Positions 23,358-40,449 of a stretch of 40,449 nt of DNA are shown here, one piece after another (the stretch's first letter is position 1; the number at the start of each line of letters is the position of its first letter). Source of the stretch: Sporomusaceae bacterium (lineage in GTDB: Bacteria > Bacillota > Negativicutes > Acidaminococcales > JAJUGR01); contig JAJUGR010000022.1 of assembly GCA_029265905.1 (NCBI GenBank), positions 1 through 40,449 of the forward strand. The letters run 5' to 3'. A program made the position numbers and the translations under genes. The notes under the pieces are model-generated. The model saw only the letters and a list, made by a program, of their open reading frames with translations, was not told the origin of the DNA and did no database searches.

Positions 23358-24071
23358 TCACACGGCCTTCTTGCCGCCCAGGTAGGCTTCCATGACCCGC
23401 GGATTGTTCGCGATTTCCGCCGCCGCGCCGCTCAGGACGATGCGGCCTGTCTCCAGGACATAAGCATGATGGGCAATTTTCAGGGCTTGCCGTACATTTT
23501 GCTCAACCAAGAGCACCGTCATCCCTGCCTGGTTGATTTCCTGGATGACCTTGAAGATGTCCGCGACGACGAGCGGCGCCAAGCCCATCGAAGGCTCGTC
23601 TAACAGCAGCACCTCCGGCCTGGCCATCAGCGCCCGGCCGATCGCCAGCATCTGCTGCTGGCCGCCGGACAAGGTCCCGCCCAATTGCGCCTTGCGCTCT
23701 TCCAAAATCGGAAACCGCGCGAAAATGCGCTTCAAATCTGACTGCACCTCATTGTCGCGCCGCTGGCAGGCGCCCATCTCCAGGTTCTCCAGAACCGTCA
23801 TGCGCGCCAGAATGCTGCGCCCTTCCGGCACCAAGGAAATGCCGCCATTGACGATCTTATGCGTCGGCATGCGGCTGACGTCCTGATCCTTGAACAAAAC
23901 CCGTCCGGAGGTCGGCTTGATGATGCCCATGATCGCCTTCATCGTCGTCGTCTTGCCGGCGCCATTGGCGCCAATCAAAGAAACGATTTTGCCGGCCGGC
24001 ACGGCCAAATCGATGTTTTTCAGCGCTTGGATATTGCCGTAACCGGCGGCAAGCTGCTCGATTTTCAGCAT
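23358..24071 (-). CDS. livF: Branched-chain amino acid ABC transporter ATPase LivF
   Basis: The 237-aa ABC ATPase has Walker A GANGAGKTT (about 34-42), signature LSGGQQQML, Walker B VLLLDEPSMGLAPL and a switch His in LLVEQN-type context. The MGLAPLVV extension after Walker B is typical of LivF. It pairs with LivG to power LivHM. It is the last gene of the operon, one base after livG. Confidence 0.96.
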   Translation of the reverse strand: MLKIEQLAAGYGNIQALKNIDLAVPAGKIVSLIGANGAGKTTTMKAIMGIIKPTSGRVLFKDQDVSRMPTHKIVNGGISLVPEGRSILARMTVLENLEMGACQRRDNEVQSDLKRIFARFPILEERKAQLGGTLSGGQQQMLAIGRALMARPEVLLLDEPSMGLAPLVVADIFKVIQEINQAGMTVLLVEQNVRQALKIAHHAYVLETGRIVLSGAAAEIANNPRVMEAYLGGKKAV

Positions 24072-24072
24072 C

Positions 24073-24834
24073 TTACGCCTCCTCCTTGCCCAGATAGGCC
24101 TCGATTACTTCCGGGTTGTCCTGAATTTCTCCCGGCGTGCCTTCAGCAATCTTTTTGCCGAAGTTCAGTACGACCAAGCGGTCGCAAATATTCATCACCA
24201 GGCCCATGTCATGCTCAATCAAAATGACCGCTTTATCCATGGCCCGGATTTTTTTGATCAGCGCCTGCAAATCTTCCGTTTCGCTCTCATTCATGCCGGC
24301 CGCCGGTTCGTCCAGCAGGACCAAATCCGGATCGGAGGCCAGGGCGCGGGCGATTTCCAGCCGGCGCTGCTTGCCGTACGGCAGATTGGATGCGATCGTG
24401 TCCGCCTCTTCGCCGATGCCGACCAGGGTCAGCAGTTCCTGCGCTTTTTCGCGCACGGCCTGTTCCTCCGCCCGCTGCGCGGCTGACCGGAAAATACCCG
24501 GCCACAAGCCGGCTTTCATGCGGCAATGGGCGCCTACCAGGACATTCTCCAAGGCTGTCATATGGCCGAACAGACGGATATTTTGGAAGGTGCGGGCAAT
24601 GCCGAGCTCCGTAATCTTGTGCGGCTTCACGCCGGCCAGCGGTTGCGCCTTGTATACCACCTGCCCGGAGGAGGGCGGCAAGACGCCGGTAATCAGGTTG
24701 AACAGCGTCGTCTTGCCGGCGCCGTTCGGACCGATCACGCCGACAATTTCACCGGGGTTGACAACAAAATCAACGTCCGCCACAGCCATCAGGCCGCCGA
24801 ATTGTTTACTTACATGCTGAACTGCTAACGTCAT
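24073..24834 (-). CDS. livG: Branched-chain amino acid ABC transporter ATPase LivG
   Basis: The 253-aa ABC ATPase has Walker [10 protein letters not shown] (about 36-44). The LivG-specific [11 protein letters not shown]-loop segment, [16 protein letters not shown] in place of a standard LSGGQ, and [15 protein letters not shown] are present. The C-terminal [18 protein letters not shown] end is typical. Its ATG overlaps the livM stop by one base. Confidence 0.96.
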
Positions 24835-25808
24835 CAGTTTGTCCCCCCGGAGATTTCTTCCTGCTGAACCGCCTTTTTCGCTAACAGCTTAGTTCGCCAG
24901 TACCGGATCGTCTCTTCGCTGATCAGGCCCTGCGGACGGAAAGCCATCATGAGCACCAAAATCGCGCCGTAAATCATCGAGCGGTATTCGGTCGCAAACC
25001 GGAGCGCCTCCGGCAAGAGCGTCAGGATGAAGGAACCAACTAGCGGCCCCCACACCGTATCGCTGCCGCCCAGCACGGCAAACAGCAGGATTTCCACCGC
25101 CCGGTGGTAGGCAAAGTCCTTCGGCCCGATAAAAAAGGTGATATGCGCCGCCAGGCCGCCGGCAATACCGGCGACAAAAGCGCCCATAAAAAACGCCAGC
25201 AGCTTGTAGTAACGCGTGTCAATGCCGGAGACTTCCGCCGCGTATTCGTCTGCTTTAATCGCGGCAAAGGCGCGGCCCAACCGGGAATTGTTCAGCCGCA
25301 CCGAAAACAGGATCAGGCCGACGAGCAGCAAGGCCAGGATGACGATGACAGAGAGGTTGCCCAACTGCCGCACGCTCAGCGGTCCCAGGCCGTCGCCCAG
25401 GCCCATGGCGATAAACGCCTTGCTCATCATGATGCTCATCGACGGAATGCCGGACAAGCCCAAGGCGCCATTTGTGACCTTCAAGTTCAAGATGACCACG
25501 CGAACCACTTCGCCAAACCCGAGCGTGGCGATCGCCAGGTAAATGCCGCGCAAGCGCGTGGTCGGCAAGCCGATGACGGCCGCCAGGAGGCACGCCGCCG
25601 CGCCGCCGATTGGCACAGCAAGGTACAGCGGCAAACCGGCCTTCATCGTCAGCAGCGCCGACACATAGGCGCCGATGCTCATAAAGCCGGCGGCGCCCAA
25701 CGACAGTTGCCCGGTTGACATCGTCAGATACATGCTCAGCCCCAAAATGGCATTGATGATGATAAACATCGCCATTTGCAGATAATACGGATTCAACAAA
25801 AACTCCAT
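24834..25808 (-). CDS. livM: Branched-chain amino acid ABC transporter permease LivM
   Basis: The 324-aa product has about nine membrane helices and LivM hallmarks: LSMYLTMSTGQLSLGAAGFMSIGAY, the TTRLRGIYLAIATLGFGEVVR cytoplasmic loop that engages the ATPases, and the C-terminal GGSDTVWGPLVGSFIL. It is hydrophobic throughout except for the charged C terminus, and lies 3 bases after livH. Confidence 0.96.
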   Translation of the reverse strand: MEFLLNPYYLQMAMFIIINAILGLSMYLTMSTGQLSLGAAGFMSIGAYVSALLTMKAGLPLYLAVPIGGAAACLLAAVIGLPTTRLRGIYLAIATLGFGEVVRVVILNLKVTNGALGLSGIPSMSIMMSKAFIAMGLGDGLGPLSVRQLGNLSVIVILALLLVGLILFSVRLNNSRLGRAFAAIKADEYAAEVSGIDTRYYKLLAFFMGAFVAGIAGGLAAHITFFIGPKDFAYHRAVEILLFAVLGGSDTVWGPLVGSFILTLLPEALRFATEYRSMIYGAILVLMMAFRPQGLISEETIRYWRTKLLAKKAVQQEEISGGTN

Positions 25809-25811
25809 GAC

Positions 25812-26693
25812 CTACCGCCCTCCCTGTTGCTCTTTGCTGCCAAAAAGCCCCTCGGGACGCAAAAACAACAGCAAAATGATCATGCCGAACGCCACGGCAT
25901 CGCGATATGAGGATACCCCGTAGGCCACGCTGAAAATTTCCGCCACGCCCAACAGAAGGCCGCCGACCATCGCGCCGGTTATGTTGCCCAGACCGCCGAG
26001 AATCAGCACCGCCAGTCCCTTAAAGCCCATGGTAATGCCCATCGTCGGTTCAATCGCATTGAACGCCAGTCCAACCAGCACGCCGGCGCCGCCTCCCAAC
26101 GCTGAAGCCAGCATCACCGTGAGCACGATAATTTTTTTTGTGTCGATACCCAGCAAATTTGCCGTCTCGATGTTTTCCGAAGTGGCGCGGATCGACTTGC
26201 CCAGCTTCGTCTTCTCCAGCCAAAAGCGCAACACCAGCATCAACCCGCAGGAAATAGCGAGAATGATAATCTGCACCATGGATATCTTCACCCCGGCCAG
26301 GTCAAACACTTGCGTGGAAGACACCGGAGGAAAGGATTGCGCCTCGGCGCCAAACAGCCTGAGCGCCAAGCTCTCCAGAAAAATCGACACGCCAATCGTG
26401 CTGATCAGCGGCGCCAGTTCCGACACCTTGCGGCGGCGGAGCGGACGAAGCGCCAGCACCTCCATCAGGTACCCCAGCACCGCCCCGGTCGCCATCGCGG
26501 CCAGCAGGGCGCCGGCCAAGCCGACGTTGGCATGCACGGCAATCATCAAGCCGACAAACGCGCCAAACATGAAGATTTCGCCGTGCGCCATGTTCACGAT
26601 ATTCAACACGCCAAAAATCAACGTGTACCCCAAAGCAATCAACGAGTAGGTGCTGCCCAACGTGATGCCGTTAACCATTTGCTGCCAAAACAA
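25812..26693 (-). CDS. livH: Branched-chain amino acid ABC transporter permease LivH
   Basis: The 293-aa product has about eight membrane helices. LivH motifs include NGITLGSTYSLIALGYTLIFG and VLNIVNMAHGEIFMFGAF at the N terminus. The RATSENIETANLLGIDTKK loop contacts the ATPase, and GLAVLILGGLGNITGAMVGG lies near the C terminus. It forms the channel with LivM. Confidence 0.96.
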   Translation of the reverse strand: MFWQQMVNGITLGSTYSLIALGYTLIFGVLNIVNMAHGEIFMFGAFVGLMIAVHANVGLAGALLAAMATGAVLGYLMEVLALRPLRRRKVSELAPLISTIGVSIFLESLALRLFGAEAQSFPPVSSTQVFDLAGVKISMVQIIILAISCGLMLVLRFWLEKTKLGKSIRATSENIETANLLGIDTKKIIVLTVMLASALGGGAGVLVGLAFNAIEPTMGITMGFKGLAVLILGGLGNITGAMVGGLLLGVAEIFSVAYGVSSYRDAVAFGMIILLLFLRPEGLFGSKEQQGGR

Positions 26694-26724: not shown

Positions 26725-27870
26725 TTATTTCAGTTCCGTAAATTTGCCGTCTTTTACCACCAGCACGTTCACATCCATCGCCGGGTTGCGTTTTGCGTCA
26801 AAGGCAAACTTGCCGGTTACGCCGTCATAATCCTTGACGGCGGCCAACTGCTCGCGCAGTTTTTTCCGGTCAGTGTTGGAGCCGGATTTCTCCAGCGCGA
26901 TCGCCATGATCTGCAGAGCGTCATAGGCCTGTGCGGCGAATTGGTCCGGTTCCTTGTTGTACTTCGCCTTGTAATCAGCAATGAATTTTTTTACTTTCGG
27001 GTCATCCTTGCCAGGGAACCACGGGCTGGCCACAACCGCGCCGTCGGCAGCCGCCCCGGCGGACTTGATCAGTTGCGGCGAATTGAAGCCGTTGTTGCCG
27101 ACAACCGGCACGTTGATGCCAAGCTCACGCGCTTTTTTCAAAATCAGCGCCGCTTCCTGGTACAAGCCGGCCACCATGACCGCATCCGGTTTCAGCGTGG
27201 CGATCTTGGTCAGTTGGGCGGAAAAGTCCGTATTCTTGTCGGCGAAGGTTTCCACGCCCAGAACCTCGATGCCCTCTTCCTTCAAGGTCTGCTGAATGGT
27301 TTTATAGCCGGAAACCGCCAAGTCGTTGTTGTCGGAATACATGATCGCGACTTTTTTCAGGTTGTATTTCGCTTTGGCCCGTTTGATCGACTGCGGAATA
27401 GCCGCCGACTCCGGCAGCGAATTTCTAAAGACATAATCGCCGATTTCCGTAATGCCTTCAACCGTCAGCGAGGTGCCCATAATCGGCACGCCTTCCTGGT
27501 TGACCATCGGCCCGATGGCGAACATTTCGCTGCTCAAGGTAGGTCCCATGATCGCCAGGACATTGTCCTTGTGAATCAGCTTGTTGGCGGCATTGATCGC
27601 TTCATTCTTCTCGCCTTTGGAATCTTCAAACACGAGCTCAATCTTCACTTTCCCCTTGGCATTGATTTCATCGCGCGCCAATTCCAGCCCTTGGCGGATC
27701 GATTCGCCGTAAGCCGCCCCTGCGCCGGTGAGGTAGGAAATAACCCCCATTTTAGCAGCGCCGCTGCTCTTGGCCGGCGCCTTGTCTGTGCCGCCGCAGC
27801 CCCCGATCATCACCGCCATGGACACGGCCATGAGGCCCGCCGTCAGCTTCTTCATCATTCCTTGTTTCAT
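26725..27870 (-). CDS. livK: Branched-chain amino acid binding lipoprotein LivK
   Basis: The 381-aa product has a lipoprotein signal ending in MIGGC and a type I periplasmic-binding fold. The segments GVISYLTGAGAAYGESIRQGLELARDEIN and IMYSDNNDLAVSG match Leu/Ile/Val-binding family proteins. ATG at 27870 (MKQGMMKK) with AAAGGTGG upstream is preferred over a 14-codon longer reading. It is the first gene of livKHMGF, behind two tandem leucine T-boxes, so leucine is probably among its ligands. Confidence 0.93.
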   Translation of the reverse strand: MKQGMMKKLTAGLMAVSMAVMIGGCGGTDKAPAKSSGAAKMGVISYLTGAGAAYGESIRQGLELARDEINAKGKVKIELVFEDSKGEKNEAINAANKLIHKDNVLAIMGPTLSSEMFAIGPMVNQEGVPIMGTSLTVEGITEIGDYVFRNSLPESAAIPQSIKRAKAKYNLKKVAIMYSDNNDLAVSGYKTIQQTLKEEGIEVLGVETFADKNTDFSAQLTKIATLKPDAVMVAGLYQEAALILKKARELGINVPVVGNNGFNSPQLIKSAGAAADGAVVASPWFPGKDDPKVKKFIADYKAKYNKEPDQFAAQAYDALQIMAIALEKSGSNTDRKKLREQLAAVKDYDGVTGKFAFDAKRNPAMDVNVLVVKDGKFTELK

Positions 27871-27935
27871 GCTTTGTTTCCACCTTTCTTCCTTGTTTCC
27901 GCTTACCTGCAATTAACGCATGGCAAAAAATTAAA

Positions 27936-28195
27936 TCGCCCCTACTGATGCCATCACGAACATCAGTAGGGGCGACGATGCGCGGTACCACCCTACATTT
28001 TACTCTCTCGCCCGCCGAACGGGCGGACTTCCGGATAACGCCCGGCGGCGCTCTCGCCTAGCTGCAGCCGGTCTACACTAGACAGGCACAGGTCAGCAAA
28101 AGGGTTCCCAGGTGAGTTGACGCTATGATTTCGCCCTGGCTTGCACCATCCGCCAGTTCTCTAAAGGCGCATCGTCCGCATCGCTCCTGGTCATA
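27936..28195 (-). ncRNA. T-box leader 2 (proximal), leucine specifier CTC
   Basis: The minus strand carries the T-box AGGGTGGTACCGCG (27994-27981). Upstream is a Stem I with CCAGG...CCTGG closing pairs, and the specifier CTC sits in CAACTCACCTGG. The terminator TCGCCCCTACTGATG / CATCAGTAGGGGCGA (27936-27950 and 27961-27975) is followed by a T-rich tail ending in TTTTTT. The TGGT bulge would pair with an ACCA 3' end, as in tRNA-Leu with discriminator A. Uncharged tRNA-Leu(GAG) should stabilise the antiterminator and allow livK transcription. Confidence 0.92.
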
Positions 28196-28223
28196 ACCCA
28201 TGCTATTCATTTGAAAAACAAAA

Positions 28224-28490
28224 GCGCCCCTACTGATGCCGAAACCGGCATCAGTAGGGGCGACAAATCGCGGTACCACCCTACATTATACTCTCTCGCC
28301 TGCCGAACGGGCAGACTTCCGGATAACGCCCGGCGGCGCTTTCACCTAACTGCCGGGCCGGTCTAACCAAGCCAGGTACAGGTCAGCAAAAGAGTTCCCA
28401 GGTGAGTTGGCTGCACCGATTCCACACTGGCTTGCACCTTCCGCCAGCTCTCTGCAATGCCTATCGATTGCGCCGCTCCCAGTCATTACT
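28224..28490 (-). ncRNA. T-box leader 1 (distal), leucine specifier CTC
   Basis: It has the same organisation as the proximal copy. The T-box AGGGTGGTACCGCG occurs at 28282-28269 on the minus strand, and the specifier is CTC in CAACTCACCTGG. A 17-bp terminator CGCCCCTACTGATGCCG / CGGCATCAGTAGGGGCG (28225-28241 and 28246-28262) is followed by CTTTTGTTTTT. The two copies share long identical stretches, which suggests tandem duplication. Confidence 0.92.
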
Positions 28491-28549
28491 TGTCATTGTT
28501 CATTTTTTACGTTACAAAACAAGCTTATTTATTCCATAACGCATAACCA

Positions 28550-28578
28550 ATTATTGCAGAACAGAACGCCTTTGTCAA
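28550..28578 (-). promoter_or_regulatory. Sigma-A promoter of the T-box/liv operon
   Basis: The minus strand has TTGACA (28578-28573), a 17-base spacer and AATAAT (28555-28550), placing the start point just upstream of T-box 1 and just beyond the pepT stop. Confidence 0.85.
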
Positions 28579-28597
28579 CACCGAAAGTACTTTTTGC

Positions 28598-29845
28598 TTA
28601 TTTTTTCCGCAAGCCCCAGCGACGCGCCAGTTCGACGACCACCTGGGCCGCCTTCACCATGGACGGCACGGGAATATACTCGTACTTGCCGTGGTAGTTG
28701 TGGCCGCCGGCAAAAATATTCGGGCACGGCAGGCCTTTGTAGGACAGCTGCGCGCCGTCCGTGCCGCCGCGGATCGGCACGACGACCGGCGTCACGCCGA
28801 CCGCTTCCATCGCCGCTTGCGCCTCTTCGACCACAAAAAAGACTTCTTCAATCTTCTCCCGCATGTTGTAATACAAGTCCTTCATCTCGAGCGTCACCGC
28901 TTCATAGCCGTACTTGGCGTTGAAGCAATCGGCCAAGCTCCGCACAAAGGCTTTGCGCGCTTCAAATTTGGCTCGGTCATGGTCGCGGACCAACATATCC
29001 AGCACAACGTGGTCGACGCCGCCGGAAATGCGTTTGGGATGGAAGAAACCTTCGTGTCCTTCGGTATACTCTGGCTTTTGGCCCGCCGGCAGCATCATCT
29101 GCCATTCGGCCGCCATTGTCATCGCATTGATCATTTTGTTCTTGGCCCAGCCGGGATGCACGATGCGTCCGTTGAAATGCACCAGCGCATTAGCCGCGTT
29201 GAAGCTCTCATAGATCAATTCGCCCAGGCCGCCGCCGTCGAGCGTGTACGCGAAATCAGCACCAAACGCCGCTACGTCAAAATGGTCCGCACCGCGGCCA
29301 ATTTCTTCATCAGGCGTCATCGCCAGTCGGATCTTGCCATGCTTTATTTCGGGATGATTGAGCAGGTACTCCACCGCCGCCAAGGCCTCGCAAATGCCGG
29401 CCTTGTTATCGGCGCCCAACAGCGTTGTGCCGTCTGTGACCAAGATGTCCTGCCCCCGGTAATCAGTCAGTTCGGGAAACTCCTTAGGCGAAAGAACCAC
29501 TCCCGCCGCCTCATTCAGCACAATATCCCCGCCATCATAATTGCGCACCAACCGGGGCTTCACGTCCTTGCCGGTCAAATCGACCGCCGTATCCATGTGC
29601 AGCACAAAGCCAAGCACCGGCGCGTCAGGGCAGCCGTTATCCGGCAGCGTAGCCATCACATAGCCGTGCTCATCCATCGTCACATCAGTCAGACCGAGCG
29701 CCTGCATGTCTTCCGCCAGCAGCCGGCCCAGCTCCAGTTGCCCTGGCGAGCTCGGGCAGGTTTTGGACGCGCTGTCCGCCTGGGTATCGACTTTTGCGTA
29801 ACGGATAAAGCGCTCCACCATTTTTTCCGCATCAAGCGTCATCAT
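28598..29845 (-). CDS. pepT: Peptidase T (tripeptide aminopeptidase, M20B)
   Basis: The 415-aa product matches PepT. The first metal site is HMDTAVD (H83, D85) and the bridging Asp lies in LLGADNKAG. TPDEEIGRGADHFD holds the catalytic Glu and a metal Glu, and the C-terminal metal His is in FAGGHNYHG. PIRGGTDGAQLS is characteristic of the family. It is cytoplasmic and releases N-terminal residues from tripeptides. The start overlaps the upstream M20 peptidase stop by 4 bases (ATGA), and an ATGATG leaves the exact codon open by one residue. Confidence 0.96.
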   Translation of the reverse strand: MMTLDAEKMVERFIRYAKVDTQADSASKTCPSSPGQLELGRLLAEDMQALGLTDVTMDEHGYVMATLPDNGCPDAPVLGFVLHMDTAVDLTGKDVKPRLVRNYDGGDIVLNEAAGVVLSPKEFPELTDYRGQDILVTDGTTLLGADNKAGICEALAAVEYLLNHPEIKHGKIRLAMTPDEEIGRGADHFDVAAFGADFAYTLDGGGLGELIYESFNAANALVHFNGRIVHPGWAKNKMINAMTMAAEWQMMLPAGQKPEYTEGHEGFFHPKRISGGVDHVVLDMLVRDHDRAKFEARKAFVRSLADCFNAKYGYEAVTLEMKDLYYNMREKIEEVFFVVEEAQAAMEAVGVTPVVVPIRGGTDGAQLSYKGLPCPNIFAGGHNYHGKYEYIPVPSMVKAAQVVVELARRWGLRKK

Positions 29846-34641: not shown

Positions 34642-35808
34642 ATGAAAAAACGTTTTTCAAAGCTCACTTGCCTGGGCCTCAGCCTTGCGCTGGCGGCCGG
34701 CCTGGTTTCGGGCTGCAAGGACACCGCAAGCAAAGACATCAAAATCGGCATGGTGTATGAATTGACCGGCAATACGGCTTCGTACGGCACGTCAGCCGCC
34801 AACGGCGCCAAGCTGGCCTTCAAGCAAATCAATGCTGCCGGCGGCGTGCTGGGCAAGCAGATCCAGATTGTTGCCGCCGACAACAAAGGCGAGCCGTCTG
34901 AATCAGCCAACGTCATGACGAAAGTGCTCACCCAAGATAAGGTGGTGGCGGTAACCGGCTTTACGGTCAGTTCCTGCGCCATTGCCGCTTCCTCGGTCGC
35001 GGAAAGCAACAAGATTCCCTTTGTGGCTGCCGCCCCGGTCAATCCGAAAGTCACGGTCGATGAACGCACCGGCAAGGTAAAAGAGTACGTCTTCCGCGCC
35101 TGCTTTATCGACTCCTTCCAGGGCATGGTCGGCGCCAATTTCGCCGCCAACAGCCTCAAGGCGAAAAAGGTTGCCATCATGACCGACAGTTCCAGCGACT
35201 ACAGCAAGGGCCTGACGAGCATCTTCAAGGACGCTTTCACGAAGAAAGGCGGTCAAATTGTCGCGGAAGAAGCCTATTTGCAAAAAGACCAGGATTACAA
35301 GTCCGTCCTGACGAAAATCAAGGCGCAAAACCCTGACTTGCTCTACATCCCCGGCTACTACGAAGACGTGGGCAAGATCATCAAGCAGGCCCGCGAGCTG
35401 GGCATGACCCTTCCCGTACTCGGAGCCGACGCCTGGGATTCGCCCACGCTGGTTGAGATGGGCGGCCCGCAAGCGTTGAACAATACGTATTTCACGAACT
35501 TCTACTCGGTCGATGACCATAACCCCGCCTCAAACGCCTTCGTGGAAGCCTATAAAAAAGAATACGGCCAAGCGCCGGACTCCATGGCCGCGATGGGTTA
35601 TGATGCCGCCAATCTCTTGGTTGATGCCATCCGCCGGGCCAACAGCACGGACGCCGCCAAGATTCGCGATGCGCTGTCCGCCACGAAGAGCTTTCAAAGC
35701 GTAAGCGGTGAGATGAGCCTGAACAGTACGCACGACGCGGTCAGAGGGGTCGTCATTATCGAAATGAAGGATGGCAAGCAAGTCTACAAAGAAACCATTA
35801 AGCAATAA
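34642..35808 (+). CDS. Orphan branched-chain amino acid-type ABC binding lipoprotein (LivK family)
   Basis: The 388-aa product has a lipoprotein signal (lipobox LVSGC) and a type I binding fold. It carries IGMVYELTGNTASYGTSAANGAKLAFKQIN, VAVTGFTVSSCAIAASSV and VAIMTDSSSDYSKGL. No permease or ATPase gene is nearby: it has its own promoter and a terminator on both sides. It may feed the LivHMGF complex encoded about 8 kb away with a different ligand. It is clearly divergent from the other LivK in this window (different lipobox and ligand-loop sequence). Confidence 0.9.
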   Translation: MKKRFSKLTCLGLSLALAAGLVSGCKDTASKDIKIGMVYELTGNTASYGTSAANGAKLAFKQINAAGGVLGKQIQIVAADNKGEPSESANVMTKVLTQDKVVAVTGFTVSSCAIAASSVAESNKIPFVAAAPVNPKVTVDERTGKVKEYVFRACFIDSFQGMVGANFAANSLKAKKVAIMTDSSSDYSKGLTSIFKDAFTKKGGQIVAEEAYLQKDQDYKSVLTKIKAQNPDLLYIPGYYEDVGKIIKQARELGMTLPVLGADAWDSPTLVEMGGPQALNNTYFTNFYSVDDHNPASNAFVEAYKKEYGQAPDSMAAMGYDAANLLVDAIRRANSTDAAKIRDALSATKSFQSVSGEMSLNSTHDAVRGVVIIEMKDGKQVYKETIKQ

Positions 35809-40310: not shown

Positions 40311-40449
40311 ATCGAGTAGGAGGTTGCCCATTAGTTGAGCAACCGACCTCTCACACCACCGTACGTACCGTTCGGTATACGGCGGTTCAATAACTTGAGT
40401 GCAGTACCTCGTATCGTTTAGCTATGTCATCATAGCCGATCGATGCGAG
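40311..40449 (-). mobile_element. 3' end of a group II intron (domains V and VI, maturase end)
   Basis: On the minus strand the intron-encoded ORF stops at 40387. Domain V follows directly: ACCGCCGTATACC-GAAC-GGTA-CG-TACGGTGGT at about 40385-40354, a hairpin with a two-base bulge and a CGC triad in the lower stem. Domain VI is GGTTGCTC-AACTAAT-GGGCAACC at about 40344-40322, with an unpaired A in the loop region. The end TCCTACTCGAT leads into yjiH, so the 3' splice site is placed at 40311/40310. The 5' end is outside the window. Confidence 0.8.
40387..40449 (-). CDS. C-terminal end of a group II intron reverse transcriptase/maturase
   Basis: The last 20 codons (LASIGYDDIAKRYEVLHSSY) are open to the window edge and end at TGA immediately before domain V. 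This is the normal position of the ORF end in many compact bacterial group II introns. The residues alone would not identify it; the RNA structure next to it does. Confidence 0.65.
   Translation of the reverse strand, partial: LASIGYDDIAKRYEVLHSSY

Follow-up and report, generated by a model that had tools for sequence, protein, structure and literature searches.

Two complete leucine T-boxes in series upstream of a livKHMGF-type operon in a Sporomusaceae bacterium

In T-box leaders, the antiterminator is stabilized by uncharged tRNA. The main text of PMC12452182 lists trp, ilv, leu (ilv-leu) and thrS as targets of tandem T-boxes, together with the transporter operons metNIQ, artQ and glnQ. 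The first-pass annotation of the locus described here gave amino acid biosynthesis and synthetase genes as the known setting of tandem T-boxes and pointed to an importer as the target at this locus; with transporter operons among the targets in that text, such a target is not new in itself. A more "digital", "pseudo-cooperative" response is the published expectation for tandem riboswitches (PMC9481103), and less leak with a steeper response has also been argued for tandem T-boxes (main text of PMC12452182). "Partially tandem" T-boxes have been noted as a known form (PMC7583486), and in L. lactis heritable two-state expression results where one T-box controls a high-affinity methionine importer (PMC7058034). 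Among leucine T-boxes, 74% have the specifier CUC (PMC7778990).

We examined a window of 40,449 nucleotides (contig JAJUGR010000022.1 of assembly GCA_029265905.1; positions are those of the whole stretch). On its minus strand, two complete T-boxes lie behind one promoter-like site and are followed by livK, livH, livM, livG and livF. The first-pass annotation had named no strand. Read 5' to 3' on that strand, the order is the end of a pepT-like gene (28598), the promoter-like site, T-box unit 1, unit 2 and livK. The leader comprises the following features.

28550 to 28578, minus strand: promoter-like site, TTGACA (-35), 17-nt spacer, AATAAT (-10), TG upstream of the -10; by consensus match alone
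28253 to 28495, minus strand: T-box unit 1, full-length RF00230 match, 69.0 bits, E 1.3e-14
28393 to 28490, minus strand: Stem I of unit 1, comprising a K-turn (AAUGA/GGGA), a compact specifier loop (AGC / AACUCA), a bulge AGAGA and, at the apex, a double T-loop sequence
28404 to 28406, minus strand: unit 1 specifier CUC (Leu), from the RF00230 alignment and the sequence
28319 to 28392, minus strand: Stem II of unit 1 with the IIA/B pseudoknot, in which 2 of 4 pairs have changed on both sides
28269 to 28282, minus strand: unit 1 T-box sequence AGGGTGGTACCGCG, bulge UGGU complementary to ACCA of an A73 tRNA
28225 to 28262, minus strand: terminator of unit 1, about 16-17 bp, followed by CTTTTGTTTTT
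27965 to 28203, minus strand: T-box unit 2, full-length RF00230 match, 64.0 bits, E 2.4e-13
28103 to 28198, minus strand: unit 2 Stem I, compact specifier loop as in unit 1
28114 to 28116, minus strand: unit 2 specifier CUC (Leu), from the RF00230 alignment and the sequence
27981 to 27994, minus strand: unit 2 T-box sequence AGGGTGGTACCGCG, from the sequence and the RF00230 match
27935 to 27976, minus strand: unit 2 terminator, 16 bp, U-tract TTTAATTTTTT interrupted

The promoter-like site agrees with the consensus at 11 of 12 positions and has an extended -10. It was the sole such site found on the minus strand for the leader, so both units would be carried by a single transcript. Each unit contains a K-turn base, specifier loop, AGAGA bulge, apical loop, Stem II, IIA/B pseudoknot, Stem III, T-box sequence and terminator. 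The antiterminator arm AGGG...CCCU overlaps the terminator stem in the units, making antiterminator and intrinsic terminator mutually exclusive. Two complete units, each with its own terminator, thus stand upstream of one gene, as the first-pass annotation had described.

The covariance model scan suggested at that stage was performed with cmscan at permissive settings, and each unit matched RF00230 over its full length (model positions 1-219). Neither reached the RF00230 gathering score of 93, and a scan at the default Rfam cut-off lists no T-box here; the two units have the lowest scores among the 19 T-boxes of the source genome (2.4 Mb). An annotation pipeline based on this cut-off would therefore overlook both.

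Paired positions co-vary across units 1 and 2 and the Pelosinus leaders. The named structure was drawn by hand on unit 1 and counted on five leaders (the two window units and three from Pelosinus). In these, 87.7% of cells were paired, compared with 31-48% when partners were slid by 1-3 columns, a control biased in favor of the structure because the latter was derived from one aligned row. Stronger evidence comes from the both-sided changes: they occurred in 12 pairs, whereas shuffling gave a mean of 6.3 and 0 of 500 shuffles reached 12. Between units 1 and 2, 14 of 60 pairs differ; 11 of these are still standard, 4 of them changed on both sides, and the 3 broken pairs lie at the edges of variable helices. 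Both units are T-boxes; a chance or artefactual origin was discarded given two independent full-length model matches and structure-preserving changes.

The genes behind the leader are as follows.

26725 to 27870, minus strand: livK-like substrate-binding protein, ATG at 27870 with AAAGGTGG upstream; Peripla_BP_6, 1e-67; nearest NCBIfam model a BCAA binding protein, below cut-off
25812 to 26693, minus strand: livH-like permease; BPD_transp_2, 6.5e-44; LivH the best NCBIfam match
24834 to 25808, minus strand: livM-like permease; BPD_transp_2, 9e-39; LivM the best NCBIfam match
24073 to 24834, minus strand: livG-like ATPase; LivG best, 296 bits; BCA_ABC_TP_C
23358 to 24071, minus strand: livF-like ATPase; LivF best, 269 bits

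Gene order and family matches bear out the proposed livKHMGF operon, with the binding protein, two permeases and two ATPases of a LIV-I importer. The substrate is not fixed by these matches, as the NCBIfam equivalog cut-offs were not reached; the leucine specifier of the leader would lend indirect support to a branched-chain substrate. Elsewhere in the window, a second liv-type substrate-binding protein gene (34642-35808, plus strand) lies away from the operon beside a dapA-like gene, and RF00029, a domain of group II introns, matched at the window's end with 46 bits (40311-40387, minus strand).

In both units, CUC occupies the specifier position and is followed by a conserved purine, with varying neighboring bases, and it is invariant across both units and six Pelosinus leaders. 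The source genome encodes tRNA-Leu(GAG) (L141; contig C32, 79559-79643) with discriminator A73 and the end ...GCACCA, and the UGGU bulge of the units fits this A73, being complementary to the ACCA end. The leucine specifier read from the sequence at the outset is confirmed by these observations. Two other T-boxes of the source genome (L003 and L012) also read CUC, making the tandem pair part of an ordinary leucine regulon; by sequence recognition, we take the gene after the first to be leuS-like and the one downstream of the second to be ilvC.

The specifier loop itself is unusual. Most T-boxes of the source genome have the Stem I S-turn, with AGUA opposite the specifier and GAA before it. This S-turn (AGUA/GAA) is absent from both units, which have instead the compact AGC/ANCUCR loop common to Pelosinus; the compact pattern matched 7 of 380 Negativicutes genomes, namely the source genome (twice) and six Pelosinus-type genomes. 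A clear AGUA is also missing from the same-operon T-boxes of Avacidaminococcus and Veillonella and from the T-box upstream of ilvC in the source genome. The S-turn is a common, not an obligatory, T-box motif, and the compact loop is a small structural question in itself. The S-turn has been described as tilting away from modified tRNA position 37 (review PMC7583486). The Stem II GAA is GAC in these units, and together with the missing S-turn this could reduce tRNA affinity. Unconstrained folding often paired the specifier of the units and did likewise with control T-boxes; masking of the specifier by a facing GAG (an "anticodon mimic") was dropped as a candidate, as ordinary T-boxes of the genome range from 0.01 to 0.94 in unpaired probability.

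We next consider the origin of the pair. Alignment of LivK gave 25 orthologous loci. The comparison with one-unit relatives, also suggested in the first-pass annotation, showed a single T-box before livK in Pelosinus (six of six Pelosinus-type genomes), Anaerospora, Avacidaminococcus and two other Negativicutes; most Veillonella have no T-box before livK. On the tree, the two units group together (support 98.7/99), and this group is sister to the Pelosinus leaders. As the units are sisters and relatives have one unit, the duplication is lineage-specific and followed the split from Pelosinus. The earlier suggestion of a duplication was therefore upheld, but its description as recent and the copies as nearly identical was overstated: the units are 80% identical overall, which is about as far apart as the leaders are between Pelosinus species (83%), and identity is spread unevenly, with 72/96 positions (75%) identical in Stem I and 39/41 (95%) in IIA/B plus Stem III. 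This unevenness could also stem from gene conversion in the 3' part.

LivK and PepT (window positions 26725-29845) are each about 80% identical to proteins of Pelosinus, which NCBI places in another order; same-order relatives reach at most 66% for LivK and about 60% for PepT (eight genomes compared). The livK and pepT genes are not adjacent in the Pelosinus-type genome compared. These identities may point to horizontal transfer or to a misplaced genome.

Four livK leaders, orthologous or related, carry a full T-box and, after it, another T-box sequence with a terminator but no recognizable Stem I.

L052 (genome G032), 3198-2770, minus strand: full plus Stem I-less livK leader, first specifier AUC (Ile)
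L100 (Veillonella sp. R32), 2482-2830: full plus Stem I-less livK leader
L102 (V. intestinalis), 2494-2835: full plus Stem I-less livK leader
L144 (genome G319), around 1822-1500, minus strand: full plus Stem I-less livK leader

The first T-box shows 93% identity between the two Veillonella species, while the stretch where a second Stem I would be expected is poorly conserved. The same arrangement occurs before a trpD-like gene in the trp leaders L142 and L143 (around 1500-1700), which come from two genomes in a different Negativicutes family; there the second IIA/B, Stem III and terminator are almost exact copies of the first. It is conceivable, though quite improbable, that the Negativicutes livK leader repeatedly gained a second T-box decision, that the Stem I-less form questions one tRNA twice in a proofreading-like manner, and that the window pair is the full-copy counterpart; the Stem I-less tandems are a more open question than the full pair. 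Specifiers differ as well: the liv T-box of Anaerospora hongkongensis (L085, 2503-2783) reads UUC (Phe) where relatives read CUC, and this UUC and the AUC of L052 are possible specifier changes before one operon. In G319, a second, divergent T-box with an apparent AUC specifier (L144, 2070-2269, plus strand) lies about 250 bases from the liv leader.

Our main reading, to which we assign a probability of roughly 85%, is that two complete, terminating leucine T-boxes in series control livKHMGF and arose by tandem duplication of an ancestral liv T-box. Each unit would hold tRNA-Leu(GAG) through the CUC of Stem I and test the tRNA 3' end at the UGGU bulge; with uncharged tRNA the antiterminator would form, and with charged tRNA the terminator would remain. 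RNA polymerase starting at the promoter-like site would have to pass two decisions to reach the operon, so read-through would approximate the product of two probabilities, with lower leak in the presence of leucine, a steeper rise on leucine shortage and some loss of maximum output. By analogy with described tandems, this steep, low-leak response is plausible. The pair formed, after the lineage had split off, from one liv T-box of the kind that is still single in Pelosinus.

The units might also differ in threshold, through tRNA affinity or terminator strength, in which case the pair would widen or shape the response and not merely steepen it. Stem I is the most divergent part, and the predicted specifier pairing and the U-tracts differ between the units, but the specifier pairing is weak evidence because ordinary T-boxes vary equally in it; we regard such a difference as possible, if somewhat unlikely. 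Less probable still, at about one chance in several, is that only one unit is a working sensor and the other, most likely the more changed unit 2, is a decaying duplicate acting as a fixed, partial terminator. The branch of unit 2 is longer (approximately 0.20 versus 0.08 for unit 1), its score is lower and its U-tract is interrupted, and relatives have second modules without Stem I; against this, unit 2 retains a 16-bp terminator along with CUC, K-turn, pseudoknot and T-box sequence, and most of the changes relative to unit 1 preserve pairing. A specifier in another frame of ACUCA, ACU (Thr) or UCA (Ser), by which the operon would answer a different amino acid, was dismissed as highly improbable, for although frame +1 reads UCA or UCG in all orthologues, frame -1 varies (ACU, UCU) while frame 0 is the invariant CUC with its conserved purine, the UCA reading is ruled out because UGGU requires A73 and the genome has G73 in 3/3 serine tRNAs (A73 in 5/5 leucine tRNAs), and the target is a branched-chain importer.

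The two leucine T-boxes in series before livKHMGF can be set beside several known systems. A strict spacing pattern for full tandems, which makes the count a lower bound, matched 2 of 380 Negativicutes genomes: the source genome and G066 (L156). The G066 tandem likewise consists of two complete T-boxes with specifier CUC in series, their T-box motifs separated by 278 bases, but differs in its ordinary specifier loop and biosynthetic target, which we take to be leuC by sequence recognition. The Pelosinus livK leaders (L080-L082, L148-L153) share the orthologous operon and leader, CUC and the compact AGC loop, and have one unit where the window has two. The AND gate of a ppGpp riboswitch and T-box-Leu (PMC9481103, PMC7583486) also stacks a leucine T-box with a second RNA decision, but there the second input is another ligand, and such an element is absent in the window. 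A ykkC-type aptamer immediately precedes the liv T-box in L085 (2353-2456) and L087 (2351-2454), with Rfam Guanidine-I scores of 57 and 54 bits, below cut-off; it is perhaps of the ppGpp subtype. Pseudo-cooperative tandem riboswitches (c-di-GMP-I, glutamine, TPP; PMC9481103) resemble the pair in their serial independent decisions and the more digital response expected, whereas in the window the ligand is tRNA and the response is ON.

The Bacillota tandem T-boxes of PMC12452182 have, like the window, two complete sensor and terminator units in series for the same tRNA; the liv-type (LIV-I) target sets the window apart, as it is not among the enriched targets in the main text of that paper. Our literature search, partial in coverage and so short of establishing absence, found no tandem T-box before a liv operon. 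The window pair is a further example of a known arrangement, not a new type of switch, and extends the range of tandem T-box targets to a liv-type importer. It also provides a natural comparison on one operon, with one unit in Pelosinus, two full units in the source genome, and a full plus a Stem I-less unit in Veillonella and others.
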